Positions 3,704 through 63,976 of a stretch of 64,000 bases of DNA are shown piece by piece. The stretch covers positions 1 to 64,000 of the forward strand of contig JAHBWE010000003.1 of the NCBI GenBank assembly GCA_019637155.1, written 5' to 3'. How positions within the stretch are numbered: the stretch's first letter is position 1; each line of letters opens with the position of its first letter. This stretch comes from Labilithrix sp. (GTDB taxonomy: Bacteria; Myxococcota_A; Polyangia; Polyangiales; Polyangiaceae). Position numbers and translations under genes: made by a program. The notes below the pieces were generated by a model. That model worked only from the letters and a program-made list of their open reading frames with translations, had not been told where the DNA came from and did no database searches.

Positions 3704-4483
3704 ATGGCGGAACAGAAAGAGTCCTCGGTTCTCTTCTCTCTCAAGGAGCTCATGAACCTTGAGGAGGACCGCATCAAGCAGGAGGACGCGGAGAAGAAGC
3801 GCAAGGCCGACGCCGAGGTGCAAGCGCGCCTCGACGCCGAGCGGAGCGCGCGCGAAGCCGAAGAGGCTCGCCTCAACGCCGAGCAGGAGCGCCGGCGCCA
3901 GGAAGACCAGCGGCAGCGCGAGGAGACCGCGCGCCTCGAGGCCATCCGGCAAGGCGAGGTCGAGCGTGCCCGCGTCGACGCCGAGAACCAGGCCCGGCAC
4001 CGCGCGATGCAGCAGCAGCAGGACCACGAGCGTCAGCTCGCGGCCCTCTCGCAAGACAAGAAGAAGAAGCAGCTCACGTACGTCATCGTCGGCGTCGTCG
4101 CCGTCCTCATCTTCGGCGGCGCGGGCGGCGGCTACGCGTTCTGGTCGTCGCAGCAGGAGGCCGCGCGCATCCAGGCCCTCAAGGACGAGGAGATCGCCGC
4201 GAAGAACCAGCAGCTCGAGAAGCTGATGGCCGATCTCAAGACGCAGCAGGAGCAGATGACCGCCGCGCAGAGCGAGCTCGCGAACGCGAAGAGCGACGCC
4301 GACGTCGCGATCGCCAAGGCCAAGCTCGCCGAGGCGCAGAAGCAGCAGCAGCAGACGCAGGCGAACATCGCCGCCGTCCGCGCGGGCAAGGGCCCGAAGC
4401 CGGCCACCAACACGAGCAGCGGCGGCGGCAGCACGAAGTGCAACTGCCAGCCCGGCGACCCGCTCTGCGGCTGCGTGCAGTAA
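3704..4483 (+). CDS. Single-pass membrane protein with long coiled coils and a Cys-rich tail
   Basis: The 259-residue protein has a long Glu/Arg/Gln-rich coiled coil in residues 15-120, one transmembrane segment at about 124-146 (ending GGAGGGYAFW), and a second coiled coil in about 150-225. The C-terminal tail ends CNCQPGDPLCGC, with four Cys in the last 15 residues. There is no cleavable signal peptide, so the N-terminal coiled coil should be cytoplasmic and the Cys tail periplasmic. The layout recalls TolA or Agl/Agm-type envelope-spanning scaffold proteins, but I see no specific family signature. The four clustered Cys could bind metal or form disulphides. Confidence 0.8.
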   Translation: MAEQKESSVLFSLKELMNLEEDRIKQEDAEKKRKADAEVQARLDAERSAREAEEARLNAEQERRRQEDQRQREETARLEAIRQGEVERARVDAENQARHRAMQQQQDHERQLAALSQDKKKKQLTYVIVGVVAVLIFGGAGGGYAFWSSQQEAARIQALKDEEIAAKNQQLEKLMADLKTQQEQMTAAQSELANAKSDADVAIAKAKLAEAQKQQQQTQANIAAVRAGKGPKPATNTSSGGGSTKCNCQPGDPLCGCVQ

Positions 4484-4542
4484 ACGCGCTCGCCTCAACG
4501 CAGTCGAGCGCGTTGCTGGAAAGCTGATAGAAGCGATCGGTG

Positions 4543-5319
4543 ATGTCCTCACCGGTCGCTTTTGCTTTGGACCTCCCTAGCCTCGCGGAGGCGCGCGACG
4601 CTGCGCGGGAGGTCGCGCCCGCGGTCGGGATGGTGAAGGTCGGCCTCGAGCTGTTCGTGCAGGCCGGCCCCGAGGCGGTGAAGATCGGGCGCGAGGTCGA
4701 GCGGCCCGTCTTCCTCGATCTCAAGCTCCACGACATCCCCGAGACGGTGGAGCGCGCGGTGGCGCAGGCCTCGAACCTCGGCGCGCGGCTCGTCACCGTG
4801 CACGCGAGCGGCGGGCGCGCGATGTTGCGGCGCGCGGTGAAGCGCGCGGAGACCGAGGGCGGGACGCTCGCGATCTGCGCGGTGACGATCCTCACGTCGC
4901 TCGACGACGGCGACCTCGACGACGTCGGCATCAACGTCACGCGCCGCGTCGCGCCGTTCAACCCCGCCGCGATCCGCGAGGCCGCCCCCGCGCCCGCGAA
5001 GGAGCCGTCGCGCGCGAGCCTCGCCGCGCTCGGCCTCGCCGAGCTCGCGTACGAAGAGGGCGTCCGCTGGTTCGTGTGCAGCGCGGCCGAGGTCGCGTCG
5101 CTCCGCGCGAAGCTCGGGCCCGGCGCGACGATCGTGACGCCCGGCATTCGTCCCGCCGACGCGAGCGCGGGCGATCAGAAGCGCGTCGCGACGCCCGAGC
5201 AGGCGATGAAGGACGGCGCCGACTGGCTCGTCGTCGGCCGCCCCATTCGCGACGCGGCGAACCGCCTGGAGGCCGCGCGCGCGATCGCCGAAGCCGCCGC
5301 CGCCGCACGCGCATCATGA
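4543..5319 (+). CDS. pyrF: Orotidine 5'-phosphate decarboxylase
   Basis: This enzyme decarboxylates OMP to UMP, the last step of de novo pyrimidine synthesis. The catalytic motif DLKLHDIPETV is intact, preceded by the substrate Lys in MVKVGLELF, and the C-terminal phosphate-binding pieces TPGIRP and VVGRPI are present. At about 258 residues it is slightly longer than usual because of an Ala/Pro-rich insertion (APAPAKEPS) in about residues 146-160. The ATG at 4543 is chosen over an in-frame GTG at 4540. The stop codon TGA (5317) overlaps the first ATG of the duplicated start region that leads into rlmB, so translation of the two genes may be coupled. Confidence 0.95.
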   Translation: MSSPVAFALDLPSLAEARDAAREVAPAVGMVKVGLELFVQAGPEAVKIGREVERPVFLDLKLHDIPETVERAVAQASNLGARLVTVHASGGRAMLRRAVKRAETEGGTLAICAVTILTSLDDGDLDDVGINVTRRVAPFNPAAIREAAPAPAKEPSRASLAALGLAELAYEEGVRWFVCSAAEVASLRAKLGPGATIVTPGIRPADASAGDQKRVATPEQAMKDGADWLVVGRPIRDAANRLEAARAIAEAAAAARAS

Positions 5320-44599: not shown

Positions 44600-44616
44600 C
44601 TGCAACTTGGATGCAG
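44600..44616 (+). promoter_or_regulatory. Zur-type box upstream of the Fur-family regulator
   Basis: CTGCAA-CTTGG-ATGCAG is a 17-bp inverted repeat, 65 bases before the regulator's start. It matches the recurring consensus WTGCAA-N5-WTGCAW found at several places between 44.6 and 62.9 kb. Its position suggests autoregulation. Confidence 0.65.
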
Positions 44617-44681: not shown

Positions 44682-45161
44682 GTGAAAGCAAAGACCAAGG
44701 CAGGATCCGCGCCGAGCAAGCGCGGGGCGACGAGCATCCCGAGCGTGAAGGAGCTGCAAGCTCTCATCCGTGGTGCCGGGATGCGCAGCACGGCGTCGCG
44801 CATCGCGGTGCTCGAGCATTTCTACGAGCATGGCGGGCGCAAGAGCCACGCCGACATGTTCCAGGCGCTCGAGGGCCGTGGCTTCGACCGGGCCACGATC
44901 TACCGAATCCTCATGGACCTCGCCGACGCGAAGATCCTCTCGCGCACGGATCTCGGCGACCACGTCTGGCGCTTCGAGCTCCTGCGAGAGGGAGCCGGCG
45001 ACCACGGCGAGGAGCATCCCCATTTCGTGTGCGTCGACTGCGGACAGCTCTCGTGTCTGCCCGACCTCACCGTCGAGCTGTCCGGCCGACGACCACCAAA
45101 GGCCATCGCCGCGAAGAAGGTCGCGATCCAGCTCAAGGGCGTCTGCGACGCCTGCAGCTGA
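44682..45161 (+). CDS. zur: Fur-family metalloregulator, probably Zur
   Basis: The 159-residue protein has a basic N-terminal extension, a Fur-type winged helix (GMRSTASRIAVLEHFYEHGG, DRATIYRILMDLADAKIL) and a dimerisation domain with structural-zinc Cys pairs C117-x2-C120 (HFVCVDCG) and C155-x2-C158 at the very end. The His-rich HGEEHPHF before the first pair is typical of Zur rather than Fur. GTG 44682 follows AGGAG by nine bases. Zur is favoured over Fur, PerR or Mur because the genes carrying the shared box are zinc-starvation types. The gene is 128 bases downstream of the deoxyhypusine-synthase-like gene. Confidence 0.75.
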   Translation: MKAKTKAGSAPSKRGATSIPSVKELQALIRGAGMRSTASRIAVLEHFYEHGGRKSHADMFQALEGRGFDRATIYRILMDLADAKILSRTDLGDHVWRFELLREGAGDHGEEHPHFVCVDCGQLSCLPDLTVELSGRRPPKAIAAKKVAIQLKGVCDACS

Positions 45162-47585: not shown

Positions 47586-48785
47586 TCACTCCGAGAGATC
47601 GTCGTTCGCGGTGCCGAGGTCGGCGTTTCGAGCGTCGAGGCCGAGGACGGCGACCGCGCGCGGCGCGCCGCCGAGCGCGATCCGGCGCGCCTCGCGGCCC
47701 GCGATCGTGTCGACCTCGACGAGCTCGCCCGTCGCCGGCGAGCTCACCCACGCGCGCCCCGGCGTCGCCGCGAGCGACGGACGAACAGGAGCGTCGCAGT
47801 CGAACGGCGCCGTCACCGGCGTGGACGTGAGGCGGCGGCGCGCCGCGACGTCGTAGCGGACGACGGCGCCGCTCGCGGTCAAGACGGTCGCGTACGGACC
47901 CGATCCGATCTCGAGCGTCGCGTCGCAGAGGTCCGGCTCGGCGTCGATCGCGAACGCCGCGCGCGCGTCGGTGTCGACGATCGTGAGCTTGGCCGGCGCG
48001 CCGAGCGCCAGCATCAACGCCTGGCGGTGGAGGCCGGCGAGCCCCTTCCGCGCCGGCGCGTCGGGGAACGGGATGACGGCGCCCGCGACGCGATCGGCGC
48101 CGACGACCACGAAGCCGTCGCGGCACGTGAACGTCGCGGCGCTCCCGTTGCTCGCCGCGAGCTCGACCTCCGGACACGACGACAGCGACGACGGGCTCGC
48201 GTCCGGGGCGACGAGATCGACGCCGCTCGCGCCGCCCGCGAGGATCGCGCCCGCGTGCGCGACGGCGACGCTCCGGGCCGCGCCGCTCGCCGCGCGCGCG
48301 ACGTCGGTCTTCGCCTGGAGCCACGGATCCTCCGCGAACGTCGCGACCGCGCCGGTCGGGCCGCGGTAGACGATGGACCACTTCGCGTCGCCGAAGAGCG
48401 GGGCCGCGCCCGTCGCCTCGGCCTCCGGCGGAGGCGCCAGCGGCGGACCGAGGAGCTGCGCGGCGGACTTGAAGATGTGGATGTGGTCCTTGTGCGGGAT
48501 CACGCTCACGCCGCCGGAGAGGACGCGCGCGACCGCCTCCGGCTGCACCACGATCGCGGTCTCGCCGGTGTACGACGCGACGAGGCTCGCGGCGGGCCGC
48601 TCGAGCGCGACGCGGCCGACGACCTCCCGATCCGCGACGTCGTAGACCACGACCTCGGGCGCGTTCGCGTCCGCGACGGCGACCCGGACGCGGAGGCGCG
48701 ACGGATGTTCGCTCGCCGGAGGGGCGTCTCCCCCGTCGTCGCCGCAGGCGGCGAGCGCGAGACCAAGCGCGAGGAGGTATCGCAT
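47586..48785 (-). CDS. Beta-propeller lipoprotein with HxDHxH motif (AztD-like zinc metallochaperone candidate)
   Basis: The 399-residue product has a lipoprotein signal (LALAACG, Cys14) and a beta-propeller of repeated blades such as VVVYDVADREVVGRVAL, ILAGGASGVDLVAPDAS and VELVDT-type ends (GELVEVDTIAGREARRIAL). The segment HKDHIHIF at about residue 98 is a likely metal site. AztD, a periplasmic zinc chaperone that works with AztABC, is also a propeller with a His-rich loop and is Zur-controlled in other bacteria. The divergent TonB receptor and the half-box between them fit that reading. No AztABC or ZnuABC transporter is in the window. Confidence 0.6.
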   Translation of the reverse strand: MRYLLALGLALAACGDDGGDAPPASEHPSRLRVRVAVADANAPEVVVYDVADREVVGRVALERPAASLVASYTGETAIVVQPEAVARVLSGGVSVIPHKDHIHIFKSAAQLLGPPLAPPPEAEATGAAPLFGDAKWSIVYRGPTGAVATFAEDPWLQAKTDVARAASGAARSVAVAHAGAILAGGASGVDLVAPDASPSSLSSCPEVELAASNGSAATFTCRDGFVVVGADRVAGAVIPFPDAPARKGLAGLHRQALMLALGAPAKLTIVDTDARAAFAIDAEPDLCDATLEIGSGPYATVLTASGAVVRYDVAARRRLTSTPVTAPFDCDAPVRPSLAATPGRAWVSSPATGELVEVDTIAGREARRIALGGAPRAVAVLGLDARNADLGTANDDLSE

Positions 48786-48789
48786 CGCG

Positions 48790-48806
48790 TTGCAACTATA
48801 ACATCT
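48790..48806 (+). promoter_or_regulatory. Half-conserved zinc-island box
   Basis: TTGCAA-CTATA-ACATCT keeps the left half of the 17-bp consensus but not the right. It lies five bases from the start of the propeller lipoprotein gene and about 45 bases before the TonB receptor gene, the place expected for a shared operator. Confidence 0.4.
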
Positions 48807-48849
48807 TGGTCGCAAAAACAATCCACAACGACTAGCGTCCACGTTGAAA

Positions 48850-50997
48850 ATGATCCGGTGCGCGGTCAGCCTCGGGCTCTGCCTCGCCGTCCTCGCGCGC
48901 GCAGGCCTCGCCCGCGCGGACGTCACCGTCAACGGCGTGCGACGGGCGGAGCCGAGCGCGGCGAGCCACATGGACATCGAGGTCGGCGCGCTCGCGGACG
49001 TGCCGCGGCGCAACGCGGAGCAGCTCCTCACCCTCGCGCCCGGCGTCTTCCTGTCGAACCCGTCCGGCGAGGGGCACGCCTCGACCATCTTCTTGCGCGG
49101 GTTCGACGCCGGCGAGGCGCAGGACATCGAGCTCAAGCTCGAAGGGATCCCGATCAACGAGCCCTCGAACGCGCACGCGCACGGCTACGGCGACACGCAC
49201 TTCATCATCCCGGAGCTGGTCGAGCGGCTGCAGGTGATCGAGGGCCCGTTCGATCCACGGCAGGGCGACTTCGCCGTCGCGGGCAGCATGGACTACCGCC
49301 TCGGCCTCGCCTCGCGCGGCGTGAGGGCGAAGGCCGGCTACGGATCGTTCCACACGCGGCGGCTCCTCGCGCTGTGGGGGCCCGCGGGGACGTCGCGCGG
49401 CACCTTCGCCGGCGTCGACTTCGTCGAAGGAGACGGCTTCGGCCCCAACCGCGCGCACTCCGCGACGCGCTTCATGGGCCGCTACGAGCTCGCGCTCGGG
49501 CACGGCTACGAAGCGGCGCTCCTCGCGACGAGCTACGTCGCGCGCTTCGACGCGGCCGGCGTCATCCGCCAGGACGACTACGAGGCGCGGAGGCTCTCCG
49601 CCTGCGCGCCGGCGGAGGAGGCGCAGTTCTTCTGTCTCCACGATCGCAACCAGGGCGGCGGCGTCGGCCGGCACGGCGCGGTGCTGCACGTCGCGAAGAG
49701 GAGCGCCGAGAGCTCCTTCGAGCAGAGCCTCCACGTCTCGCTGCGCGATCTCCGCATCCGCCAGAACTTCACCGGCTTCACCGTCGACGTGACGCCGGCG
49801 AACGATCCGCAGCGCGGCGACGGCCTCGAGCAGAGCTACCACGCGACGACGATCGGGGCGCGCGGCTCCTACCGCCGTCGCCACGCGGCGCTCGGCCGGC
49901 AGCACGAGGTCGAGCTCGGGTACTTCGCGCGGCACGACGTCGCCGACTCCGAGGCGCGCCGCCTCCGCTTCGCCGACGGCGTGCCGTATCGCGTCGACTC
50001 GGACAACGCGCTCCGGATCACGAACCTCGGCGCCTACGCCGCCGGCCGCTTCACCCCGCTCGAGCGCCTCGTGCTCCGCGGCGGCGTCCGCCTCGAGACG
50101 TTCGCGTTCGGCGTGACGGACGAGAACCGCCCCGCGACGGATCGCTCCGGCGCGCGCCTCACCTCCGAGAACGTCGAGGCGTTCGGGCTCGCGGTGCAGC
50201 CGAAGCTCTCCGCCGACCTCGCGCTCACGCGTCACGTCCGCCTCGTGACGAGCTTCGGGATCGGCACCCGCTCGAGCGACGCGCAGGCGCTGTCGCAGGG
50301 CGAGTTCGCGCCCTTCGCGCGGGTCCGGGCGCTCGAGTCGGGCGTCGTCGCGAAGGCCTACGAGCACGGCGGCTTCAGCCTCGACGCGCGCGCGATCGCG
50401 TACCACACGCGCGTCGAGCGGGACCTCCTCTTCGACGAGGTGGCGGGGCGCAACACGTCGATCGGCGCCTCGAACCGCTTCGGCGCGCTCGGCGCAGCGC
50501 GGCTGCGATCGCCGCTCGGCCTCGACCTCCAGTCGAGCCTCACCTACGCCGAGGCGTACCTGCCGCCCGCGGGCGCCTCGACGTTCGACCTCACCGCGGG
50601 CGTGCGGCTCCCGTACATCCCGCGCTGGGTCGGGCGCGTCGACGCCTCGCTCCACCGCTCGTTCGTCATCGCCGGGCGTCGCTTCCACGGCGGCGTCGCC
50701 GCCGGCCTCTCCTACGTCGGGCCGCGTCCGCTGCCGTTCGGACAGCTCGGTCCGGCCTACGGCACCGTCGACGCGGGGCTCAAGCTCCGGCACGGCATGT
50801 TCGAGGCGGGACTCGACGTGACGAACCTCCTCGATCGCCGGAACAAGATCGCGATCTACAACTACGCCTCGAGCTTTCGGGGGCCCGACGCCTTTCCGTC
50901 GCGGGTGACGCAGCAACACTTCGCCGCCGGCCCGCCGCGCGTCGCGATGGCGACGCTCACGGTCTGGTTCGACGCGGAGAAAGGACAGGAGCCATGA
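48850..50997 (+). CDS. TonB-dependent outer-membrane receptor
   Basis: The 715-residue receptor has a signal peptide (LCLAVLARAGLARAD), a plug domain (VPRRNAEQLLTLAPGVFLSN, STIFLRGFDAGEAQDIELKL, GIPINEPSNAHAHGYGDTHF, ERLQVIEGPFDP) and a 22-strand barrel ending near LTVWFDAEKGQEP. The His-rich AHAHGYGDTHF in the plug could touch a metal or metallophore. A TTG six bases upstream is an alternative start. TonB receptors of zinc regulons (for example ZnuD) import zinc or zinc chelates, the role inferred here from the neighbours. The stop overlaps the start of the next lipoprotein gene (ATGA). Confidence 0.88.
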   Translation: MIRCAVSLGLCLAVLARAGLARADVTVNGVRRAEPSAASHMDIEVGALADVPRRNAEQLLTLAPGVFLSNPSGEGHASTIFLRGFDAGEAQDIELKLEGIPINEPSNAHAHGYGDTHFIIPELVERLQVIEGPFDPRQGDFAVAGSMDYRLGLASRGVRAKAGYGSFHTRRLLALWGPAGTSRGTFAGVDFVEGDGFGPNRAHSATRFMGRYELALGHGYEAALLATSYVARFDAAGVIRQDDYEARRLSACAPAEEAQFFCLHDRNQGGGVGRHGAVLHVAKRSAESSFEQSLHVSLRDLRIRQNFTGFTVDVTPANDPQRGDGLEQSYHATTIGARGSYRRRHAALGRQHEVELGYFARHDVADSEARRLRFADGVPYRVDSDNALRITNLGAYAAGRFTPLERLVLRGGVRLETFAFGVTDENRPATDRSGARLTSENVEAFGLAVQPKLSADLALTRHVRLVTSFGIGTRSSDAQALSQGEFAPFARVRALESGVVAKAYEHGGFSLDARAIAYHTRVERDLLFDEVAGRNTSIGASNRFGALGAARLRSPLGLDLQSSLTYAEAYLPPAGASTFDLTAGVRLPYIPRWVGRVDASLHRSFVIAGRRFHGGVAAGLSYVGPRPLPFGQLGPAYGTVDAGLKLRHGMFEAGLDVTNLLDRRNKIAIYNYASSFRGPDAFPSRVTQQHFAAGPPRVAMATLTVWFDAEKGQEP

Positions 50998-51746
50998 ACG
51001 TTCGCGCGCCCATCCTCCTCGCCGGCCTCTGCCTCGCGCTCTCGTGCGACGCCGCGACGGGCGGACGCGAGGTCCGCTACGACCTCGCGGCGACGTCCGC
51101 GGCGGTGAGCACGTTCCACACCGCGGCCGGTTGGGACGTGACGCTGAGCGAGGCGTGCGTCTCGCTCGGCCCGATCTACGTGTTCTCCGGCGAGCCGACC
51201 GCGCGCTCCACGCTCTACGACTGGCTCGTCCCCTCGGCGCACGCGCACCCCGGCGTGGACCATTTCGCGGGCGGAGAGGCGCGCGGGGAGTGGCTCGCGA
51301 CCGTCGCCGTCGACGCGCTCGCGAGCGCGCCCGTGCACGTCGGGCGCTTGAGCGGCCCCGCCGGCCCGGCGCGCACGCTCTCGCTCTACCTCTCGCCGCC
51401 GCGGCCGGAGACGGCGGGCCCGGCGGGGTGCCTTCGCGGTCACCAGGCCTACGTCGTCGGGATCGCGCAGCGCGACGGCGTCACCGTCGCGTTCGAGGGC
51501 GGCCTCGACATCGAGGAGGCCGGCAACCGGCGGCGGATCCAGGTGCCGGTCTCGTTCGAGGTCGACGACGGGGCCACGCTCGCCGTCCTCGTCGATCCGC
51601 GGCCATGGCTCGACGAGGTGCGCTTCGACGACCTCACCGTGACGGAGCCGGGGGGGCGCGCGACGATCGCGGCCGAGTCGCAGGCGCGCGTGGCCTGGTT
51701 CCTCGGGGTGCAGCGGGCGAGCGCGTTCTCGGCCCGGATTCACTAA
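50994..51746 (+). CDS. Lipoprotein coupled to the TonB receptor
   Basis: The ATG overlaps the receptor's stop codon and follows AGGAG. The 250-residue product has a lipobox (LALSC), then beta-type sequence with HAHPGVDHF at about residues 81-89, a plausible metal-binding cluster. Segments such as VSFEVDDGATLAVLVDPRPW and FEGGLDIEEAGNRRRIQVPV suggest an immunoglobulin-like fold. No family is recognised. The tight overlap makes a shared function with the receptor likely, for example as a surface lipoprotein that hands substrate to it. Confidence 0.8.
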   Translation: MNVRAPILLAGLCLALSCDAATGGREVRYDLAATSAAVSTFHTAAGWDVTLSEACVSLGPIYVFSGEPTARSTLYDWLVPSAHAHPGVDHFAGGEARGEWLATVAVDALASAPVHVGRLSGPAGPARTLSLYLSPPRPETAGPAGCLRGHQAYVVGIAQRDGVTVAFEGGLDIEEAGNRRRIQVPVSFEVDDGATLAVLVDPRPWLDEVRFDDLTVTEPGGRATIAAESQARVAWFLGVQRASAFSARIH

Positions 51747-51754
51747 CAAACGAA

Positions 51755-51771
51755 TTGCAAAAATATCTCCG
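51755..51771 (+). promoter_or_regulatory. Weak half-site of the zinc-island box
   Basis: TTGCAA-AAATA-TCTCCG matches only the left half of the consensus, 23 bases before the next lipoprotein gene. The stretch around it (51741-51768) is A/T-rich. It may be a degenerate site or simply part of a promoter. Confidence 0.25.
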
Positions 51772-51793
51772 TTGACTATGAAGCGAGGCACGC

Positions 51794-52684
51794 ATGGGTC
51801 GTCGCGCGCTCCTCCTCGTCGTCGCGTTCCTCGTCGCCGCGTGCTCGGGCGAGAGCGGAGGCTCCGGCTCGGTGTCGGTCCGCGTGAGCGGCGAGGGCGC
51901 GGCGAAGGGCGGGTACCCGTACGTCAAGGACGGCGTCGAAATCCGCTTCGTCGACGGCTGGTCGGTGCGGTTCTCGAAGTACCTCGTGAGCGTCGGCCAG
52001 CTGCGCCTCGCCGGCGCGGACGACGCGGTCGCGTTCGACTCGAACGACGTGTTCGTCGTCGATCTGCACCAGGGCGATCCGGTCATCTTCACCGCCTCGG
52101 GCCTCGACGCGCGGAGGTGGGAGCGGCTCTCGTTCCGCGTGATCGCGCCGCCGGCGGAGGCGAAGCCGATCGGCGCCGTCGCGGCGGACGACCTCGCGCG
52201 GATGCAGCGAGAGGGCCTCAACTACTGGCTCGAAGGCGTCGCCGAGAAGGAGGGCCGCGCGGTGGCGTTCGCGTGGGGCCTCGCGAACCCCACCCGCGCG
52301 ACGAACTGCTCGAACGGCGTCGACGGGACGGAGGGCATCGTCGTCCGCAACAACGCGACGGCGGAGGCGGAGATCACGTTCCACCTGGACCACCTCTTCT
52401 GGGACACGCTCGGGACCGAGATCGCGAAGCTGCGGTTCGACGCGATCGCCGCCGCGGCGGGGGAGGACGGCGTGGTTCGCTTCGACGATCTCACGAAGCA
52501 GGCGCTCTCCGACCTCCGCGACGGCGCCGGCGAGCCGCTCCGCGACGGCGCGGGCGCGCGCCTCGTCTACAACCCCGGGAGCGTCCCCCTCGCCGACCAG
52601 ACGCTCCGCGCCTTCATGCTCGCCGCGTCCGCGGGGCAGGCGCACCTGAACGGCCTCGGGCTCTGCACCATCACTCGTCTCTGA
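51794..52684 (+). CDS. Conserved-type lipoprotein of the zinc island
   Basis: The 296-residue product has a lipobox (FLVAAC). Its mature part starts with strands (GSVSVRVSGEGAAKGGYPYV, GWSVRFSKYLVSVGQLRL) and contains FVVDLHQGDPVIF, AFAWGLANPTRATNCSNG and ITFHLDHLFWDTLGTEIAKL, where HLDHLFWD is a possible metal ligand set. It has some resemblance to MbnP-like periplasmic proteins, but I do not see the family's signature clearly. The ATG is preceded by GCGAGG. It is downstream of and in line with the receptor/lipoprotein pair. Confidence 0.7.
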   Translation: MGRRALLLVVAFLVAACSGESGGSGSVSVRVSGEGAAKGGYPYVKDGVEIRFVDGWSVRFSKYLVSVGQLRLAGADDAVAFDSNDVFVVDLHQGDPVIFTASGLDARRWERLSFRVIAPPAEAKPIGAVAADDLARMQREGLNYWLEGVAEKEGRAVAFAWGLANPTRATNCSNGVDGTEGIVVRNNATAEAEITFHLDHLFWDTLGTEIAKLRFDAIAAAAGEDGVVRFDDLTKQALSDLRDGAGEPLRDGAGARLVYNPGSVPLADQTLRAFMLAASAGQAHLNGLGLCTITRL

Positions 52685-52711
52685 TTTTTGCGACGGCGAA
52701 GGAGAAGCACC

Positions 52712-53239
52712 ATGCGATGGACACCCGTGTTCGCCACGTTCGCGCTCGCGGTCGCGTGCGGAAGCAGCGACGATGAGGCGCCGCCCCCGGTCGTCCGCGG
52801 ACCGATCGCGCTCGGCGCCCCCGCCGCGGCGTGCGCCGTCGGCGACGACACGGTCGACCTCGAGAAGCACGCCTGCCTGCACGCGCGGAGCGGCCCCTTC
52901 GCCTCCGCGACCGCGGGCGCGGAGGACGACGCGCCGTCCGTGTCGAAGACGCACACCGCGTACGACGTGACGATGGGCGCCTCGCCCTCCTGGGTCGCGT
53001 ACCGACCGAAGGGCGCGAAGACGTATGCGTTCTACACGAAGCCGCAGGTCCGCATCGCGGTGCGCGGAGGCAGCGGGAGCCAGCTCGCGACGTCGTGCGA
53101 GGGCCCCACCACCGGCGCGTGCGACCTCCTCCCCTACGCCACGCAGGTCCGCCTTGCCGCGAACGAGGACGTGCACGTCGCGCTGTACCCCGCGGAGGGG
53201 ATCACGTCGGCGATGCTGGTGATCGAGGACGTGGATTAG
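52712..53239 (+). CDS. HACxH-motif lipoprotein
   Basis: The ATG at 52712 follows GGAG by seven bases. The 175-residue product has a signal with lipobox LAVAC and one domain that begins LEKHACLHARSGPFASATAG and continues with THTAYDVTM. The same opening is found in the lipoproteins at 60644 and 61254 and in the remnant at 58310. HAC[LI]H is a plausible zinc site (His-x-Cys-x-His). The rest of the domain consists of short strands with two Cys (ATSCEGPTTGACDLL). It sits 27 bases behind the previous lipoprotein gene, as the last of a four-gene run from the receptor onward. The function is unknown. Confidence 0.75.
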   Translation: MRWTPVFATFALAVACGSSDDEAPPPVVRGPIALGAPAAACAVGDDTVDLEKHACLHARSGPFASATAGAEDDAPSVSKTHTAYDVTMGASPSWVAYRPKGAKTYAFYTKPQVRIAVRGGSGSQLATSCEGPTTGACDLLPYATQVRLAANEDVHVALYPAEGITSAMLVIEDVD

Positions 53240-53627: not shown

Positions 53628-53644
53628 TTGCAACATGATTGCTA
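53628..53644 (+). promoter_or_regulatory. Zur-type box between two broken divergent genes
   Basis: TTGCAA-CATGA-TTGCTA is one base from the start codon of the minus-strand Cys-rich pseudogene and 77 bases before the plus-strand methyltransferase pseudogene. Its first 15 bases are identical to the box before the COG0523 gene at 60462 (read on the minus strand). Confidence 0.65.
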
Positions 53645-54516: not shown

Positions 54517-55333
54517 GTGAGTATGACGACGTCGAGCACGGCGCACGCGTTCGCGACGCCGCCCGCGCAGGCGCGGCGGCTCGGCATCATCTCGTGCATC
54601 CACGGCAACCTCGAGGCGCTCGAGAGCGTCCTGGCCGACCTCCGCGCACGCGACGTCGACAGCCTCCTTTGCCTGGGCGATCTCGTCGGCTACGGACCGT
54701 TTCCCGACGAGAGCACATCGAGGATCCGCGAGCTCGGCGTCCCTACGGTGCTCGGCTGCTGGGACGAAGGGATCGCGGAGGAGAACGAGAACTGCGGCTG
54801 CACCTTCGTCACGCAAGAAGAAGGACAGCTCGGCGCGATGGCGTTCCTGTGGACGACGCTTCATGTCTCGGAAGAGACCAAGAGCTACCTCGGGACGCTG
54901 CCGATGAGCCTGGCTTTCGACCTCCCTTGTGGTCGCCTCGTCGCCGTTCACGGTAGCCCTGCGAGCACGTCCGAGTACCTGATGGAGTCGACGCACGAGC
55001 TCGTGCTCTTCGAGCGGGCGGCGAGCGCGGGCGGCGACCTCCTGGTGTGCGGACACACGCACGTGCCGTACGTGAAGCACCTCGCCGGAGCTCTCGCCGA
55101 AGACCGTCATCAACGCCGGTAGCGTCGGTGAACCTCGCCACGGCGGCCTCGCCGCGACCTACGCCATCGTCGACACGCAGTCGGGCGACGTCGAGCTGTG
55201 CGAGGTGCCCTACGACGTCGAAAAGACGGTGCACGCCATGAGGGCTCGCGAGGTGCCGGAGACGTTCGCCGAGCGCCTCCTTCGCGGTCAGGAGCTGACC
55301 GGCAAGCAGAAGGAAGTCTTCTGTGCGTGCTGA
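54517..55333 (+). pseudogene. Metallophosphoesterase-like gene with frameshift
   Basis: From GTG 54517 (GAGG nine bases upstream) the frame encodes a YfcE-like phosphoesterase: LGIISCIHGNLEALESVLAD, LLCLGDLVGYG, VAVHGSPAS and VCGHTHVPYVKHL. Near 55090 the frame runs into a stop, while the expected continuation PKTVINAGSVGEPRHGG and AATYAIVDTQSGDVELCEV is read one base out of phase to 55333. The first metal motif has Cys where Asp is usual (SCIHGN for SDxHGN), and the GNHD motif reads GCWD, so the enzyme may have been divergent before the frameshift. Confidence 0.75.
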
Positions 55334-56565
55334 CGCGCCTACGAGCGTCGTGCTCGTAGGGCTCGAGTCGGTAGGCAAATCGGCGCTCTTCCGCGGCCTC
55401 ACGGGGAGCCGGGCGGGCGATGAAGCGAACTTTCGGGGCTCGACCGTGACGTGCCGTCGCTGTCACTTGAGCGAGTGCAACTCGCGAGCTCGTCGACACG
55501 CCGGGGATCCGCGTCGAGGGCGACAGCGCCTCGACGGCGCTCGCGCTCGCCACGCTCCGCGAGGCGGACACGGTGATGCTCGTCCTACGAGCGCCGTACC
55601 TGACGAGCGAGGCTCGGACGTTGCTCAGGTCGCTCCGCTTCGAGGTGCGACGGCTCGCGATCATCGTCACGTTCGCGGACAAGGTCTCGTCGGATCTCGG
55701 GCGAGCCACGCATGCGCTCGAGACCCGCCTCGGCGTCCCCGTCGTCACGATCGACGCGCGGGAGCTGACCGCCGCACACCGCTCCGCGATCCTCGACGCG
55801 ATCCGGACGGCACGACCGCTCGCGTCGAGAGACCTCGATGCGTCGCCTCTCGTCCAGCTCCGCGCTCGTCCGCCAGCTCGAACACTCTTCGAGCACCCAA
55901 CGCTGGGTCCGCTGGTCGCCGTCGTCGCCATGACCGCGCTCCTGGCGGTTCCCGTTGCGTGCGCGTTCCATCTTTCATCCTGGCTCCAGCCATACGCCGA
56001 CGCCGCCGTCATCGGACCCATCACGCAAGCGCTCGAGGGCCTATGGCCGCCGCTCGCCGCTATCTTGATAGGTCCGTACGGGCTCTTGACGCTCGGCTCC
56101 TACTCCTTCCTCTGGGCGTTCCCGGTCGTTTTGCTGCTCGGGATTGCGAGCAGCCTCGCGGAGGAGACCGGGCTGCACGATCGGATCACGGCCGCGCTCG
56201 ATCCCTGGCTTCGTCACGTCGGCCTCTCCGGTCGCGCCGGCGCGATGGCGCCGCTCTCCCGGATACTCGGCGCGGTCTTCGGCTTCTTTCATCTCCCCGA
56301 GGAGACGTCGCTCGCGGTGGTCTTCAGCGTCCTTCGGAAGGACGGGATGCTGCTCCTGAACACCTCGAACGGCTCGCTCTTGCGTTCGCTCTCCGGTGGA
56401 CAGGTCTTCGGCGCCGTCTACCTCGCGAGCACCTTGACGCCCTGCCTGGTCACGCTCGCCGCCGTGCGTCGAGAGCTCGGCTGGGCTGCGGCGGGAAACG
56501 TCGCGGGACGGCAAGCGCTCACGAGCGTCATCAGCACGTGGATCCTCAGCCAGCTCGCGTGGTGA
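55323..56565 (+). pseudogene. FeoB-like membrane GTPase with frameshift
   Basis: GTG 55323 overlaps the phosphoesterase end. The first frame gives the G1 loop VVLVGLESVGKSALFRGLTG and then is lost near 55490. The next frame carries the G3 motif ELVDTPGIRVEGDSA, VTFADKVSSD as a weak G4, and a membrane domain with the nucleoside-recognition/gate type sequence GAMAPLSRILGAVFGFFHLP and SLAVVFSVLRKDGML to the stop at 56565. At about 410 residues it is shorter than FeoB and has one gate unit. Such a protein could move Fe2+, or zinc given the context. A single frameshift breaks it. Confidence 0.75.
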
Positions 56566-56679: not shown

Positions 56680-58065
56680 TCACGGCTGATCTGTCCAGTG
56701 CATCGTCAGCTGGCACATCTCGTCGCGTGAGGTCGGGCCGGAACGGACGTCCTGCGGCGGATGATTGAACTGCCGCGGGTTCCCATCGGTGTTGTCGTAC
56801 TCGCAGAGCCACTTGATCGAAGAGCCCGCGGGCAGATCGATCGGTTGGTTCAAAAAGTAGGCATTCTGATGCTCGAAATCCCACTGCAGATCGGCGAGGC
56901 ACGCGTTCTTCGGCTGGCCCGGGCGCTCAATCTCGAGGTGAAAGAAGGTCCCGAGCTGATGCATGTGCGGGGTGATGCCGTGCAGGGTGACCGGACGATC
57001 GAACGTGTGCTTCCACTCGGCCTGCGAGCTCGAGACGTTCGCGGGGACGTCGAAGCGCTCATTTCGCGTTACGAGTGACGTGAAGGGCTTCACCTCGTGG
57101 TCGCTGAAGTGGATTCCCCAGCGGCTTCGATCGTTGATCGCGAATTCGTTCACGCGGTCGCCTGCGTAGTGAATTTCGAAGACGATCGTCGCGCCCTTCG
57201 GCAACCGGTAGCCGTAGCCCTTCGGGATGGCCGGCGGGTCGGCACCCGGGACCCACATACCGATGAGAAGCGGCGTCTCGGGGAAGTCCCATTCCCCTTC
57301 GAACCCCGGACCGGCGATGTTCGGCGCCGCGGCCTGGTAGCGCTGCTCTTGCTCGAGGCTCTTCCCGGTCGGATCGATCCAGATCTCCATGTGGTGGACA
57401 ATCGGGAACGACCCCGCTTTCCCGGCCCAGCTCCCATTGTCCGGAATCGCCTCGACGGCGGTAATGAACCGGTCCGTCTCGTAATTCGTTTTGTAGGGGA
57501 AACGGCGGAAGATATCGCGCGGCACCCGGGGCGGGATGACGAAACCGTCCGGAGTATTCTGGAGATCCCAATCAGGAGTGCCCGTGATCCATTCGCCCGG
57601 CTGCGGATCGCGCCAATCGATCGGAGGCGGAAGGTCGGCCGGGTCGCCCTCGGGCGCCCCGCTATCGGCCCAGCTTACGAAGACTCCGATCTCCTCCGCG
57701 GTGAGACGCCGCGCGCCCGAGAACGTGTCGGCGTTCGAACAACCTGTGTCGAGGCGAATCGACCGAGCCTCCGGCATGCGACCGGAGACGACGGCTGATT
57801 TGACGATGTTGCGAAACGCCTTGACCGTCGCGTAGTCGTCGAGGGCAAACGAGGCGAACCCGCCCTCGTGGTGACAAGCCTGGCAATGCTGCTGGAGGAG
57901 CGGCATCACGTGCTTGTTGAACGTGACGATTTGTCCCGCCGCGTTCGTCGCACCGTTCGCCTGCGCGGCCGCTCCGTTCGAATCGTCCGGCGCCGCCGAG
58001 CACGCCGCGACCACCGCTGCGGCGACCGTCGAGAACGCGAGCGCAAAGAAGGATCGAAACATCAT
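56680..58065 (-). CDS. Cytochrome c/copper type II monooxygenase-like lipoprotein
   Basis: ATG 58065 follows GGAG by seven bases. The 461-residue product has a lipobox (VAACS), a c-type haem site CQACH at residues 61-65 within a short cytochrome-like region, and a C-terminal half like the copper type II, ascorbate-dependent monooxygenases of myxobacteria: IVHHMEIWID, FEIHYAGD, HGITPHMHQLGTFF, and LADLQWDFEHQNAYF. The His/Met sets would bind the two copper ions. It is probably a periplasmic oxidoreductase with an unknown substrate. Its direct promoter region is occupied by the remnant at 58062-58310. Confidence 0.82.
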   Translation of the reverse strand: MMFRSFFALAFSTVAAAVVAACSAAPDDSNGAAAQANGATNAAGQIVTFNKHVMPLLQQHCQACHHEGGFASFALDDYATVKAFRNIVKSAVVSGRMPEARSIRLDTGCSNADTFSGARRLTAEEIGVFVSWADSGAPEGDPADLPPPIDWRDPQPGEWITGTPDWDLQNTPDGFVIPPRVPRDIFRRFPYKTNYETDRFITAVEAIPDNGSWAGKAGSFPIVHHMEIWIDPTGKSLEQEQRYQAAAPNIAGPGFEGEWDFPETPLLIGMWVPGADPPAIPKGYGYRLPKGATIVFEIHYAGDRVNEFAINDRSRWGIHFSDHEVKPFTSLVTRNERFDVPANVSSSQAEWKHTFDRPVTLHGITPHMHQLGTFFHLEIERPGQPKNACLADLQWDFEHQNAYFLNQPIDLPAGSSIKWLCEYDNTDGNPRQFNHPPQDVRSGPTSRDEMCQLTMHWTDQP

Positions 58066-58377: not shown

Positions 58378-58394
58378 ATGCATTACAGTTGCAA
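58378..58394 (-). promoter_or_regulatory. Zur-type box 1 upstream of the DksA/HACxH-remnant pair
   Basis: Read on the minus strand this is TTGCAA-CTGTA-ATGCAT, a good match to the consensus. It lies 68 bases before the start of the HACxH remnant at 58310, in an A/T-rich stretch. Confidence 0.6.
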
Positions 58395-58686: not shown

Positions 58687-59097
58687 ATGATGGCACGTGC
58701 TCGCAGCGCGAAGGAGAACGAGAAACGCGACCTCTCGGCGCATGACAAGAAGCACCTCAAGCAGAGGCTCGAGGAGGAGCGCCGCAGCGTCGTTGGCCGT
58801 CTCCGCGCCCATCTCGGTGAGGCCACCGAGGACACCCATCCTCTCGCCGACGAGATGGACTTGGCGACTCGCCATCAAGATCAAGCGTACTTGCTCCGCC
58901 TCGCGGAGAAGGAGCGCAAGCTGCTCATCGAGATCAACCACGCCCTCGCGAAGTTCGATGGTGACTCGTACGGCGCCTGCGAAGGCACCGGCGAGCCCAT
59001 CGGGCTCAGGCGGCTCGAGGCCCGACCGTGGACTCGCTTCAGCATCGCGTACAAGGAACAGCTCGAGCGAGAGCGTGCTGCCAAGCGTGAACGGTGA
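58687..59097 (+). CDS. DksA/TraR-family protein with degenerate zinc finger (DksA2-like)
   Basis: The 136-residue protein has the coiled-coil domain of DksA with the acidic tip motif DEMDLA (DxxDxA, residues 55-60) and a C-terminal globular part. Of the four zinc ligands in canonical DksA (CxxC...CxxC), only C98 remains. The partners are T101 (CEGTGEPIG), S119 and Y122 (RFSIAY). Zinc-independent DksA paralogues of this kind are Zur-controlled in Pseudomonas and replace DksA during zinc starvation. GGAG sits six bases before ATG 58687. It should bind the RNA polymerase secondary channel together with ppGpp. Boxes at 58378 and 58464 lie upstream. Confidence 0.88.
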   Translation: MMARARSAKENEKRDLSAHDKKHLKQRLEEERRSVVGRLRAHLGEATEDTHPLADEMDLATRHQDQAYLLRLAEKERKLLIEINHALAKFDGDSYGACEGTGEPIGLRRLEARPWTRFSIAYKEQLERERAAKRER

Positions 59098-59176: not shown

Positions 59177-60427
59177 TCACGCGACCATCGACGGCTCGCC
59201 CACGCTCGGGCCCCACGAGGCGAAGGGATCGGGGAGAGCGCGCCACTGCGAAGGCCCGAGCTTCATCTCGGCGTCGGTGAGCAGGCATCGCTCGAGACCG
59301 GCTCGAAGGGACGCCTCGTCCATCCGGATCCCGATGAGCACGAGCTCCTGCCGTCGGTCCCCGAAGGGCTCCTGCCAGATGCTCTGGATCTCGCGCCGGC
59401 GCTCCTCCTCCGTCGGCCAATGCGCTCGAGGAACGCCCGCCCACCAGAAGCCGGCGCGTGACGTGCGGCACACCGGCCCCGCCTGCGACCACACACCGAC
59501 GTCGTTCATGCGCGTGGCGAGCCAGAAGAACCCCTTCGAGCGGAGGACCCCCGGCCACTCGCTCGCAAAGAACGCCGACAGGCGCGCGGGATGGAAGGGC
59601 CTCCGCGCGCGGTAAACGAAGCTCGCGATCCCGTACTCCTCCGTCTCGGGCGTATGAACACCGGCGAGCTCCTTCGCCCACCCGGCGTAGGTCGAGGCCT
59701 TCGCGTCGTCGAACAGGCCCGTGCCGAGGACGTGCTTCAGCGCGAGCCGGCCGAAGGGCGCGCGGACGATCCGGGCGTCCGGGTTGAGGTGGTGCACGAT
59801 CCCTTCGAGGCGCTCCACGTCCTCGTCGGTCACGAGGTCCACCTTCGTCAGCACGATCACGTTCGCGAACTCGACCTGCTCGACCAGCAGATCGGCGATC
59901 GTCCGCTCGTCGGCGGGGCCGAGCGCGATGCCGCGGGCGCGCAGGTCCTCCGTCGAGCTGTACTCGCGCAGGAAGCCTTGAACGTCGACCACGGTCACCA
60001 TCGTGTCGAGGCGCGCCACGTCGGAGAGGCTGAAGCCTTTCTCGTCCCGGAACGAGAACGTCGCCGCGACGGGCATCGGCTCGGAGATCCCCGTCGACTC
60101 GACGAGGAGAGCGTCGAACCGTCCCTCCTTCGCCAGGCGCGTGACCTCGTCGAGGAGATCCTCGCGGAGCGTGCAGCAGATGCAGCCGTTCGACATCTCG
60201 ACGAGCTTCTCTTCCATCCGGTCGAGGGACGCTCCGCCGGTCTTCACGAGCTGGGCGTCGATGTTGACCTCGCTCATGTCGTTCACGATGACCGCGACGC
60301 GACGCCCCTCGCGGTTGGCGAGGACATGATTCAGCAACGTCGTCTTGCCCGCGCCGAGGAAGCCGGAGAGGACCGTCACCGGGAGCTTCGTGGGGGCCAC
60401 CGCATCGCCCTCGCGTTCGTCGTTCAT
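59177..60427 (-). CDS. COG0523 (CobW/ZNG1-type) zinc-chaperone GTPase
   Basis: The 416-residue GTPase has Walker [10 protein letters not shown] (residues 22-30), the metal-binding motif GCICC (81-85; CxCC), an EVNID switch, [12 protein letters not shown], and the base motif LTKVDLV. The C-terminal CobW_C domain ([20 protein letters not shown]) is followed by a family-typical tail ([19 protein letters not shown]). Zur-controlled members pass zinc to essential zinc enzymes when zinc is short. ATG 60427 is preceded by GGAGG. A perfect-context box lies 35 bases upstream. Confidence 0.92.
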
Positions 60428-60461: not shown

Positions 60462-60478
60462 TCGCAATCATGTTGCAA
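60462..60478 (-). promoter_or_regulatory. Zur-type box of the COG0523 gene
   Basis: Read on the minus strand this is TTGCAA-CATGA-TTGCGA. It lies 35 bases before the COG0523 start codon, where it would overlap the promoter. An A/T-rich stretch (AATACAATATCAAG) follows on the upstream side. Confidence 0.7.
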
Positions 60479-60559: not shown

Positions 60560-60576
60560 TTGCAACTTGTATGCAT
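60560..60576 (+). promoter_or_regulatory. Zur-type box of the HACxH lipoprotein operon
   Basis: TTGCAA-CTTGT-ATGCAT lies 68 bases before the start of the lipoprotein gene at 60644. Its core differs from the regulator's own box (44600) by a single spacer base between the arms TGCAA and ATGCA. Confidence 0.7.
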
Positions 60577-60643: not shown

Positions 60644-61270
60644 ATGATTCGCTTCGCCACGTCCGCCGCTGCGCTCGCCTGCTTCGCCTTCCTCGCTGCC
60701 TGCTCGGCGGCTCCCTCCGAACCGGTGGAGACGACGTCTGCGCAGATCGGCTCGTGCAAGGAGATCGACGAGCACCAGGTCGAGCACGCGTGCCTCCACA
60801 GCTTCGCCGGCCCGTTCCGGAACGTGACCGCGTCGACGGCGTCGCCGCCGGACGTCTCGCACGAGCACACGGCGTACCGCGTGACGCTCCCGGCGGTTTC
60901 GAGCCCCGATACCGATGCCGATGCCGATGCCGCCGCGCCGTCCGCTCCGACGTACGCTGGATCGGTCAGCTTCGTGCCGGAGGAGGACGGTGAGTACGCG
61001 ATCTACACGTCCTCGCCGGCCGCCGAGCTCTCGGCGTCGGACGAGCACGGAAAGAGCGTCTCGTTCGAGTGCACGACGGAGGTGCCGGAGGATCTCTGCA
61101 GCGGCCTCCGTCTGCTTCGCGTCGCCGACTTCGAGCACGAGAGCCCGGTCACCCTCACGTTCGAGTCGTCCGAGCCCGGTGTGTTGCTCTTGATCGAGCA
61201 CCTCGGCCGCGGCCACGGACACGGTCACGACGGCGACGACAACAACGACAATCATGAGCGCGCGCACTGA
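60644..61270 (+). CDS. HACxH-motif lipoprotein with His-rich tail
   Basis: ATG 60644 gives a signal peptide with lipobox LAACS. The domain opens [20 protein letters not shown] with GPFRNVTAS and [11 protein letters not shown], like the proteins at 52712 and 61254. A Pro/Asp/Ala loop and strands follow ([39 protein letters not shown]). The C-terminus is [12 protein letters not shown] with a final NHERAH, a classical zinc-binding His-rich tail. With the box upstream, a role in zinc capture at the cell surface is likely but unproven. The next gene's ATG overlaps its last codons. Confidence 0.8.
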
Positions 61271-62207
61271 GCGCGCGTGCGTGGCGCTGCTCCTGGCGCT
61301 GACCGCGTGCCAGACGAAGCGGATCGTCCAGGTCATCCCCGACGAGCAGCCGCCTCCGGCCGCCGCCGAGGATGACGACGACGATGACGCGAGCGGCGGG
61401 ACGACACGCCTCCCCGACGACGCGCCGCCGCCGCTCGATCCGAGCGTCCCGCAAGCGCGCATCGTGGACTCGTCGCCGAAGGTCGGCGCGAAGGACTTCT
61501 ACCCCGTCGAGGTGTACGACCGCGGCGGTGACGAAGGTGTCGGCGAGCGTAGAGTGCTGCGCTTCACCTTCGATCGCGCGATGGAGACGTCGCGCAAGAA
61601 GGTGGGGCTCCGGCCCGGAGATCGCGCGCTCGACGGCGCGTGGTCTCCCGACGCGAAGAGCTTCGAGCTCACGCTCCTCGGCACCGACGACGCGTCTCCG
61701 CTCGAGGCCGAGACCGAATACGAGCTCGATCTCGCGGAGCTCCGCAGCGACGCCGACGAGCCGGTCGGGACGCCGCGCGTTCGCTTCACCACCTCGAAGC
61801 GAGACAGCCTCATCGAGCACGCGTGCATCCACACGCTCTTCGGTCCGTTCGAGTCGGTCACCGCGGCCGCGCCCCAGAGCACGCTCACGTCCGCCCCGCT
61901 CGCGAGCGCGACGCACAAACAATATTCGATCGCGCTCCCCGGAGCAGGCACGGCCTACGCCGGTGACCTGCGGCTCGCCTTCAGCGGAACGGGGACGAAG
62001 CGGTACCTGCTCCTCGCGAACGGCGAGCTCGACGTCGCGGTCTCCGACGCCGATGGCGCGACCGTCGCGGTCACGCCCTCCCCCACCGTCGACGCGTGCC
62101 CCGGCATCCAGCACGGTTTCGGCGTCGAGCTCACCCGCGGCAAGACGTACCGACTCGCTCTATCGAGCAAGCGCGCCGACGTGAAAGCGATGTGGGAAGC
62201 TCCTTGA
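61254..62207 (+). CDS. Two-domain HACxH lipoprotein (Ig-like plus HACxH domain)
   Basis: The ATG lies 17 bases inside the previous gene's end, so translation is coupled. The 317-residue product has a lipobox (LALTAC) and an acidic linker (EDDDDDDAS). A Big_5-like immunoglobulin domain follows at about residues 65-180 ([49 protein letters not shown]). The second domain opens [20 protein letters not shown] with [10 protein letters not shown], related to the other HACxH proteins. The Ig-like domain may present the second domain away from the membrane. The function is unknown. Confidence 0.8.
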
Positions 62208-62828: not shown

Positions 62829-62845
62829 ATGCAACCTGATTGCTA
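62829..62845 (+). promoter_or_regulatory. Zur-type box, first of a pair
   Basis: ATGCAA-CCTGA-TTGCTA lies between the decayed minus-strand region and the lipoprotein gene at 62939. With the box at 62888 (start-to-start distance 59 bp) it could control both sides. Confidence 0.6.
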
Positions 62846-62887: not shown

Positions 62888-62904
62888 AAGCAACTCAATT
62901 GCAT
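62888..62904 (+). promoter_or_regulatory. Zur-type box, second of a pair
   Basis: AAGCAA-CTCAA-TTGCAT ends 34 bases before the start codon of the lipoprotein gene at 62939, a good repressor position. Arms AGCAA and TTGCA match the consensus. Confidence 0.65.
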
Positions 62905-62938: not shown

Positions 62939-63976
62939 ATGAAAGCTCTTGCTGCTGGTCTCCTGACGCTCGGATGTGGTGTTGCGGTCGTGGCGTGCGC
63001 CGCGCCGGAGGAGGCGTCGACCTCCCTCACCGCCATGGACTCCACTCGCGCGCCCGTCCCCGAAGGCGAGCTCGTCGCCGAAGACGACACCGTCGCGTGC
63101 GACGCCTGTTTCCCGATCGAGTCGCTGCCGGAGGCGACCCGGCGGACGGCGGACGCCCTCCTCCTCCGCGCCCTCGACACGGAGGCGCTCTACACGCTCC
63201 TCTCCGACATCAAGCCGATGAGCAGCGGCTTCGCCGGGCTGCGGTTCCCGGCGGCCGAGACGACGGTCCCGGCGCTCGAGACGCTCCGGGCGATCACGCA
63301 GACCTTCCAGTGCACGCCGCGGCTCAGCGGCGCCACTCAGGTGTTCGCGGCGACCTTCGACGGAATGAAGAGCGCCGAGGCGCTCTTGTTCCACGGTCCG
63401 AGGTTCGCGGCCACGGTCACCGAGCACACGAGCCCGTTCGAGGCGCTCGGCATCGGGGCCTCGATGCAGCCCATCGACGCGGTCGACATCGTCGATCGCG
63501 ATCCGACGACGAAGCGCTTCCAGGCGTACGGGCACCTCTTCGGCTACCCGCAGCACGCGGTGGACTTCTTCGTCGCAGCGGCGGAGGGCGAAGACGCGAC
63601 GGGGCAGTTCGTGGAGCGCGACTTCGTGCACGTCCCCACGTTCGCGAAGCCGACGGGGGCGTTCACGTACGCGGTCCCCAAGGGGCACCAGCCGATCGCG
63701 GCCGACCTCGCGCTGCGCGAGAAGGCGGCGCCCGTCCTCAACGCCTACAAGCACGCGCGCGCGGAGCACGTCCAGGGCAGCAGCGGCGCCGCGCGCTTGC
63801 TCCGCGCGCTCTTCGACGACGGCACCGGACGCTGCAAGCCGGAGAACGCCGCCCGCTTCGTGCAGGACCACGGCACCGCGCCGCCGCCCGCGCCCGTATG
63901 CGCCGGGCCGGGCGGACACTGCAGCGCCGACGCGGACTGCTGCTCCGGCGACTGCCACGGCGACCACTGCCACTGA
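62939..63976 (+). CDS. Zinc-island lipoprotein with Cys/His-rich tail
   Basis: The 345-residue product has a lipobox (AVVAC). The mature protein has CDACF near its start, then a helical domain (TRRTADALLLRALDTEALYT, then PMSSGFAGLRFPAAETTVPA and FQAYGHLFGYPQHAVDFFVA). The C-terminal 30 residues (CAGPGGHCSADADCCSGDCH, ending DHCH) form a compact Cys-rich module with four His, a likely metal-binding or disulphide knot. Two 17-bp boxes lie upstream. The central domain is one I know only as uncharacterised, and a zinc-related role is inferred from the boxes. Confidence 0.78.
   Translation: MKALAAGLLTLGCGVAVVACAAPEEASTSLTAMDSTRAPVPEGELVAEDDTVACDACFPIESLPEATRRTADALLLRALDTEALYTLLSDIKPMSSGFAGLRFPAAETTVPALETLRAITQTFQCTPRLSGATQVFAATFDGMKSAEALLFHGPRFAATVTEHTSPFEALGIGASMQPIDAVDIVDRDPTTKRFQAYGHLFGYPQHAVDFFVAAAEGEDATGQFVERDFVHVPTFAKPTGAFTYAVPKGHQPIAADLALREKAAPVLNAYKHARAEHVQGSSGAARLLRALFDDGTGRCKPENAARFVQDHGTAPPPAPVCAGPGGHCSADADCCSGDCHGDHCH

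Follow-up and report, generated by a model that had tools for sequence, protein, structure and literature searches.

Which metal does a small locus of the soil myxobacterium Labilithrix sp., in which a TonB-dependent receptor is joined to several lipoproteins, bring into the cell, and by what route? A sequence-only reading of the 64-kb stretch of DNA in which the locus lies (here, the window) had proposed outer-membrane zinc capture and pointed to repeated His clusters.

The five genes of the locus

All five open reading frames and their His motifs were located in 47586–53239, as that reading had listed them. The minus strand carries the gene of an AztD-like beta-propeller lipoprotein (47586–48785; 399 aa, with HKDHIH from residue 98). 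A divergent promoter of 64 bp (48786–48849) separates it from the plus-strand gene of a TonB-dependent receptor (48850–50997; Pfam Plug, 3.8e-11, and barrel, 7.2e-15), whose plug motif, NAHAHGYGDTHF, contains His109, His111 and His117. The gene of the P2 lipoprotein (50994–51746, plus strand; 250 aa, HAHPGVDH at residue 83) shares an ATGA with the receptor stop. P3 (51794–52684, plus strand; 296 aa, HLDHLFWD at residue 197) and P4 (52712–53239, plus strand; HACLH at residue 53) follow.

The locus is built of known kinds of parts in an undescribed combination. P2, P3 and P4 matched no Pfam or NCBIfam family and can thus still be called undescribed with respect to the libraries searched; the family of P4 is small, and only a few of the relatives that were searched have it. 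As had also been remarked, no inner-membrane ABC transporter is adjacent: there are no AztABC-type transporter genes in the window neighbourhood of the AztD-like gene, and the sole ZnuA is encoded on another contig (C21).

The AztD-like propeller and the paired lipoproteins

The propeller had been counted among the undescribed proteins, and here the earlier reading needs correction. It matches the NCBIfam AztD model NF038015 over its full length (E 2.5e-15; 56 bits against a curated cut-off of 400), so an undescribed family was rejected. It also matches the PDB AztD structure 6cmk (phmmer, E 6e-9), which we take to be Citrobacter koseri AztD from the chain counts in PMC6689063. Judged by its sequence, the propeller is a divergent AztD, a distant homologue far below the family cut-off.

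It resembles AztD of the Paracoccus denitrificans AztABCD system (PDB 6cmk/6n01) over 350 aligned residues, in its zinc-homeostasis gene neighbourhood, in the disulfide Cys pair (Cys204 and Cys221, aligned to AztD Cys214/Cys231) and in the His-x-x-His of site 2. In the alignment to AztD, HKDHIH (98–103) stands against HGxHxD, with both His retained and Asp104 replaced by His; the C-terminal His408 is absent, and no His occupies the positions aligned to the site-1 pore residues His124, His167 and His218. Unlike AztD, the window protein is a predicted lipoprotein that has lost site 1, and it is coupled to a TonB receptor instead of having AztABC next door. A site-1 mutant of P. denitrificans AztD still transfers zinc to AztC and a site-2 mutant does not (PMC6689063); the site retained in the propeller would therefore be the transfer site.

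The same study reports that Paracoccus AztD knock-outs grow normally and suggests periplasmic accumulation (PMC6689063). This would suit lipoproteins that buffer or sense zinc at the surface or in the periplasm but do not relay it, next to a receptor that imports something else. We regard such an arrangement as highly improbable, since the conserved receptor–P2–P3 order and the gene overlap argue for one assembly.

AztD was detected in 7 of the 58 genomes searched. It adjoins the trio of receptor, P2 and P3 in the window genome and in relatives G004, G011, G030 and G047. A further AztD in G004 has just P4 beside it, and no trio was found beside the distant AztD matches of G046 and G051. In a distant relative from a scan of GTDB species genomes (L149), another AztD lies beside a receptor, the two being flanked by FolE (GTP cyclohydrolase I) and a COG0523 GTPase. 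The metal sites vary among these proteins. The AztD of one relative (L025) is canonical and possesses both sites; in L022, P2/P3 lie between two AztD paralogs (61–1155 and 3909–5075), of which one has just site 1 and the other just site 2; and an AztD-like protein in L031 (2400–3850, minus strand) retains site 1, has an altered site 2 and carries a long His/Asp-rich C-terminal tail.

Profile comparison identifies P2 and P3 as homologues of one another (98.5%, E 1.5e-15, over a stretch that includes the signal peptide). No Pfam or NCBIfam family that would contain them was found, and 84 relatives of the two gave no Pfam match beyond signal peptides and local EF-hands, the latter weak and seen in some P3 proteins. 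A P3 profile search of PDB sequences found no match. Structure prediction had been suggested as a check. The AlphaFold2 models are good (pLDDT 87.7 for P2 and 92.9 for P3), and for both proteins the single significant Foldseek match was MbnP (7l6g). With VIA-align, P2 superposes on 7l6g with Z 9.1 (191 residues, 4.5 Å; next row 6.6) and P3 with Z 10.1 (193 residues, 3.9 Å; next row 7.8). Both are thus predicted to have the MbnP fold.

MbnP binds copper. At L033 (2002–4178) and L125 (6268–8471), the receptor trio is next to true MbnP and MbnH genes, which exceed the cut-offs of their families, and MbnPH genes are linked to TonB receptors as P2 and P3 are (PMC3621798). Together with FUR proteins that may sense iron and are nearer Fur/PerR in sequence, these links and the sole good structural match of P2/P3 would fit acquisition of copper or iron. 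We give this little likelihood. P2, P3 and two paralog pairs have no match at E<=1 to the MbnP model TIGR04052 (MbnP_like_WxW); the MbnH di-heme enzyme is absent from the locus; and AztD and zinc-sparing neighbours stand there. P2 and P3 also differ from MbnPH pairs in their conserved His and in being two tandem lipoproteins.

The His clusters are unevenly conserved. Across 41 P3 sequences, His197 (95%), His200 (93%) and His284 (88%) are conserved, as are Cys172 and Cys291 (98%), and the three His form a candidate metal site. For the HxxH of P3, conservation is thus about 95%; for the His cluster of P2 it is only 30–60%.

A palindromic box and the surrounding island

Alignment of strong intergenic copies yielded a palindrome of the 7-1-7 type, TGCAAYNNNRTTGCA. 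Genome-wide pattern searches (10.1 Mb, one mismatch allowed) gave 20 places for it, and 11 of these fall within a 41-kb island (contig 44.6–86.1 kb); 0.08 would be expected there (Poisson 2.6e-20, for a region chosen after the fact).

The island opens with a box at 44601–44615, upstream of a FUR-family regulator (44682–45161, plus strand; PF01475, 2.3e-11). Beyond the locus, a strong box, TGCAACATGATTGCT (53629–53643), precedes methyltransferase, phosphoesterase and FeoB-like genes, which lie between P4 and a DksA paralog. Another, TGCATTACAGTTGCA (58379–58393), lies about 300 bp before this paralog (58687–59097, plus strand), which matches PDB 4ijj, a DksA2, better than canonical DksA (3.2e-17 and 1.8e-10). 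It lacks the C4 zinc cysteines (CEGT ... SIAY) and is thus of the DksA2 type. The COG0523 zinc metallochaperone GTPase ZigA (59177–60427, minus strand; NF038288, 633 bits, cut-off 600) has a strong box 44 bp before it (60463–60477), and a further strong box (60561–60574) precedes a P4 paralog with HACLH (60644–61270, plus strand). A second P4 paralog, with HACIH and an extra N-terminal domain, follows (61254–62207, plus strand). Past the end of the window the island continues with a COG0523 gene, a MerC-like gene, a second FUR, an ABC pair, a second trio, a NicO-like permease and two more COG0523 genes.

Three other features of the region deserve mention. The GTPase and gate parts of the FeoB-like gene (55323–56565) are in different frames, through a sequencing indel or because the gene is broken. 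A lipoprotein with a copper type II monooxygenase C-terminal domain is encoded inside the island (56680–58065). Two boxes (62830–62844 and 62889–62903) precede a gene of unknown function with a Cys/His-rich C-terminus (62990–63976).

Zur regulons that were determined by experiment commonly include COG0523 proteins, zinc-free dksA and TonB receptors (PMC6103462). ZigA, over its cut-off, and DksA2 are present in the window as markers and show nothing unusual. A matrix derived from the island was also applied to other genomes, with matches counted up to 300 bp upstream of each gene. There, the box precedes 12 of 40 FUR, COG0523, AztD or P4 genes, whereas among unlabelled genes it does so in 11 of 1212 (OR 47, p 2e-13); with receptors added, it precedes 21 of 162 genes, and column-permuted controls gave 0–2. 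A palindromic box of the FUR family precedes zinc-starvation genes, as in a Zur regulon; at the AztD/receptor promoter it is weak.

FUR genes lie at 44682, at contig position 66524 and at C19:130187. In sequence their products come closer to Fur/PerR structures than to Zur, and it is from context that we infer the regulator at 44682 to be a zinc sensor of the Zur type. Two further boxes of the genome lie just after the third FUR on C19, probably a second zinc locus. That stretch (L242 8188–10699) also encodes an ArsR-type regulator and a small His/Asp-rich protein. A literature search, thin on subscription journals, found no direct study of myxobacterial Zur or zinc uptake.

At the locus itself, the box is less clear. 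The "half-box" noted earlier in the divergent promoter was a fair description: the half-site GTTGCAAC is present, and no strong box was found there, only a degenerate copy (48797–48817). This best full palindrome scores 17.2, a value reached by 0.5% of mononucleotide shuffles, and the strong boxes nearby score 28–34. A weaker box (51742–51762; score 20.8) lies 42 bp before P3, and the corresponding promoter in G030 has a strong copy (27.6). These three sites make regulation of the five genes by the box likely. The ZnuA locus was rejected as co-regulated with the island because it has no box.

The island also bears on the form in which zinc might enter. Its ABC pair is of the exporter type (contig 67–71 kb), with a box at 71539 and a weaker one at 67072, and Zur-regulated receptors for metallophores of the pseudopaline type are known (PMC6103462). 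The receptor might thus import not the ion but a zinc–metallophore complex, the cell's own or stolen, which the ABC pair would carry across the inner membrane, with P2, P3 and AztD stripping the zinc. We think this unlikely, as no biosynthetic cluster was seen in the stretches read and the ABC genes are unlinked to the trio in most relatives.

The receptor trio and the choice of metal

The receptor family was found in 47 of 58 relatives searched and P3 in 46; P2 was detected in 31, and the genes mostly stand side by side. The trio recurs in this arrangement in dozens of Myxococcota, more than chance would give and usually without AztD, and the GTDB scan found its family throughout the phylum, including named strains of Myxococcus, Corallococcus, Sorangium, Polyangium and Minicystis. 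The co-occurrence search that had been proposed thus singled out receptor, P2 and P3 as a recurring module. The Labilithrix genome has four such loci (the window, contig C3 at 77 kb, C8 and C18).

Several of the family's receptors carry an N-terminal TonB C-terminal domain (L018 8852–11203, L023 12312–14783), which the window receptor lacks. In Myxococcus and others, small His-rich proteins are encoded directly before the receptor (L190 9263–9625, L160 9013–9384). Searched against PDB sequences, the receptor matched receptors of the FepA/BtuB type only.

Not every trio appears to serve zinc. In the C18 trio (L018 6442–11203), a NikR gene over two NikR equivalog cut-offs follows on the same strand and a NicO-like permease lies nearby; this is probably a nickel version. 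NikR also adjoins the trio in G003 and G004, and a NicO-like gene follows the second trio of the island. One could therefore see the trio as a nickel or cobalt system to which AztD and the zinc neighbours are incidental. For the window locus we judge this very improbable: NikR-linked receptors form a different clade from the AztD-linked ones, the box is missing from every NikR gene found, and zinc is the metal indicated by AztD, ZigA and DksA2. In the receptor tree, the receptors linked to AztD group together (2 changes; none of 500 shuffles gave so low a number). The plug His cluster was rejected as a zinc-specific sign, since the family alignment shows its first His throughout the family, NikR-linked members included. 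The earlier reading had named a receptor family that follows another substrate as evidence against it. The family as a whole goes with more than one metal (NikR, MbnPH), but the AztD-linked clade looks like zinc.

With NikR or MbnPH beside paralogous trios, we take the trio to be, in all probability, a chassis for metal uptake in general: its neighbours determine which metal it serves, and at the window locus it is assigned to zinc. More tentatively, and with somewhat less than even confidence, we propose that the receptor and its two tandem MbnP-fold lipoproteins are an unnamed outer-membrane metal importer found phylum-wide in Myxococcota. It would have been duplicated and re-assigned to zinc (by AztD and the FUR-family box), nickel (by NikR) or copper (by MbnPH), with the lipoproteins as dedicated relay partners.

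For the window locus, the best explanation, drawn from genes, homology, predicted folds, conservation, linkage and box distribution, is that it serves zinc starvation as the part of the response located at the outer membrane, with a relay through P2, P3 and the AztD-like protein; we consider this fairly probable. A zinc-bound FUR-family repressor would silence the locus and the surrounding island through the boxes, and a fall in zinc would switch their genes on. The TonB receptor would then import zinc, as the ion or as a complex. P2 and P3, made with the receptor, would bind the metal beside it and relay it, P3 through its three conserved His, and the AztD-like lipoprotein may take up zinc at the retained site 2, from which AztD hands it to its partner. 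Delivery would be to an inner-membrane importer that has no gene directly beside the locus; candidates are the FeoB-like gate in its box-preceded string, the NicO-like permease, the ABC pair and the distant ZnuA system. Zinc as the substrate, zinc sensing by FUR, the location of the lipoproteins, their metal binding and the direction of transfer are all inferred.

The original idea of an outer-membrane zinc system is thus supported, more strongly than at first, by AztD homology, ZigA, the zinc-free DksA, the linked FUR regulators and the genome-wide box, but not for the family at large, which tracks several metals. Counted against zinc are the degenerate promoter box, the nearness of FUR to Fur/PerR, the boxless ZnuA, the association of the family with NikR and MbnPH, copper binding by MbnP, and the altered D104 and missing His408 of the propeller.

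The arrangement resembles that of the Zur-regulated receptors ZnuD (Neisseria, Acinetobacter, Pseudomonas) and ZnuK/L/M (Caulobacter), in which COG0523 and DksA2 share a zinc-starvation regulon with a TonB receptor; ZnuD is likened here by description. The trio differs from them in its two dedicated lipoproteins and in its box of the TGCAAY type. To our knowledge, the passage of free metal ions across the outer membrane is understood in only a small number of receptors; of those named here, none is accompanied by a pair of lipoproteins with the fold of a copper protein. If the proposal is true, Myxococcota would gain a defined zinc regulon and its box, and two unnamed protein families, P2 and P3, a first function. 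It would also be evidence that use of the MbnP fold is not limited to copper. For AztD, it would offer a natural test, as there are versions with just site 1 and versions with just site 2, and one genome has the two next to each other.
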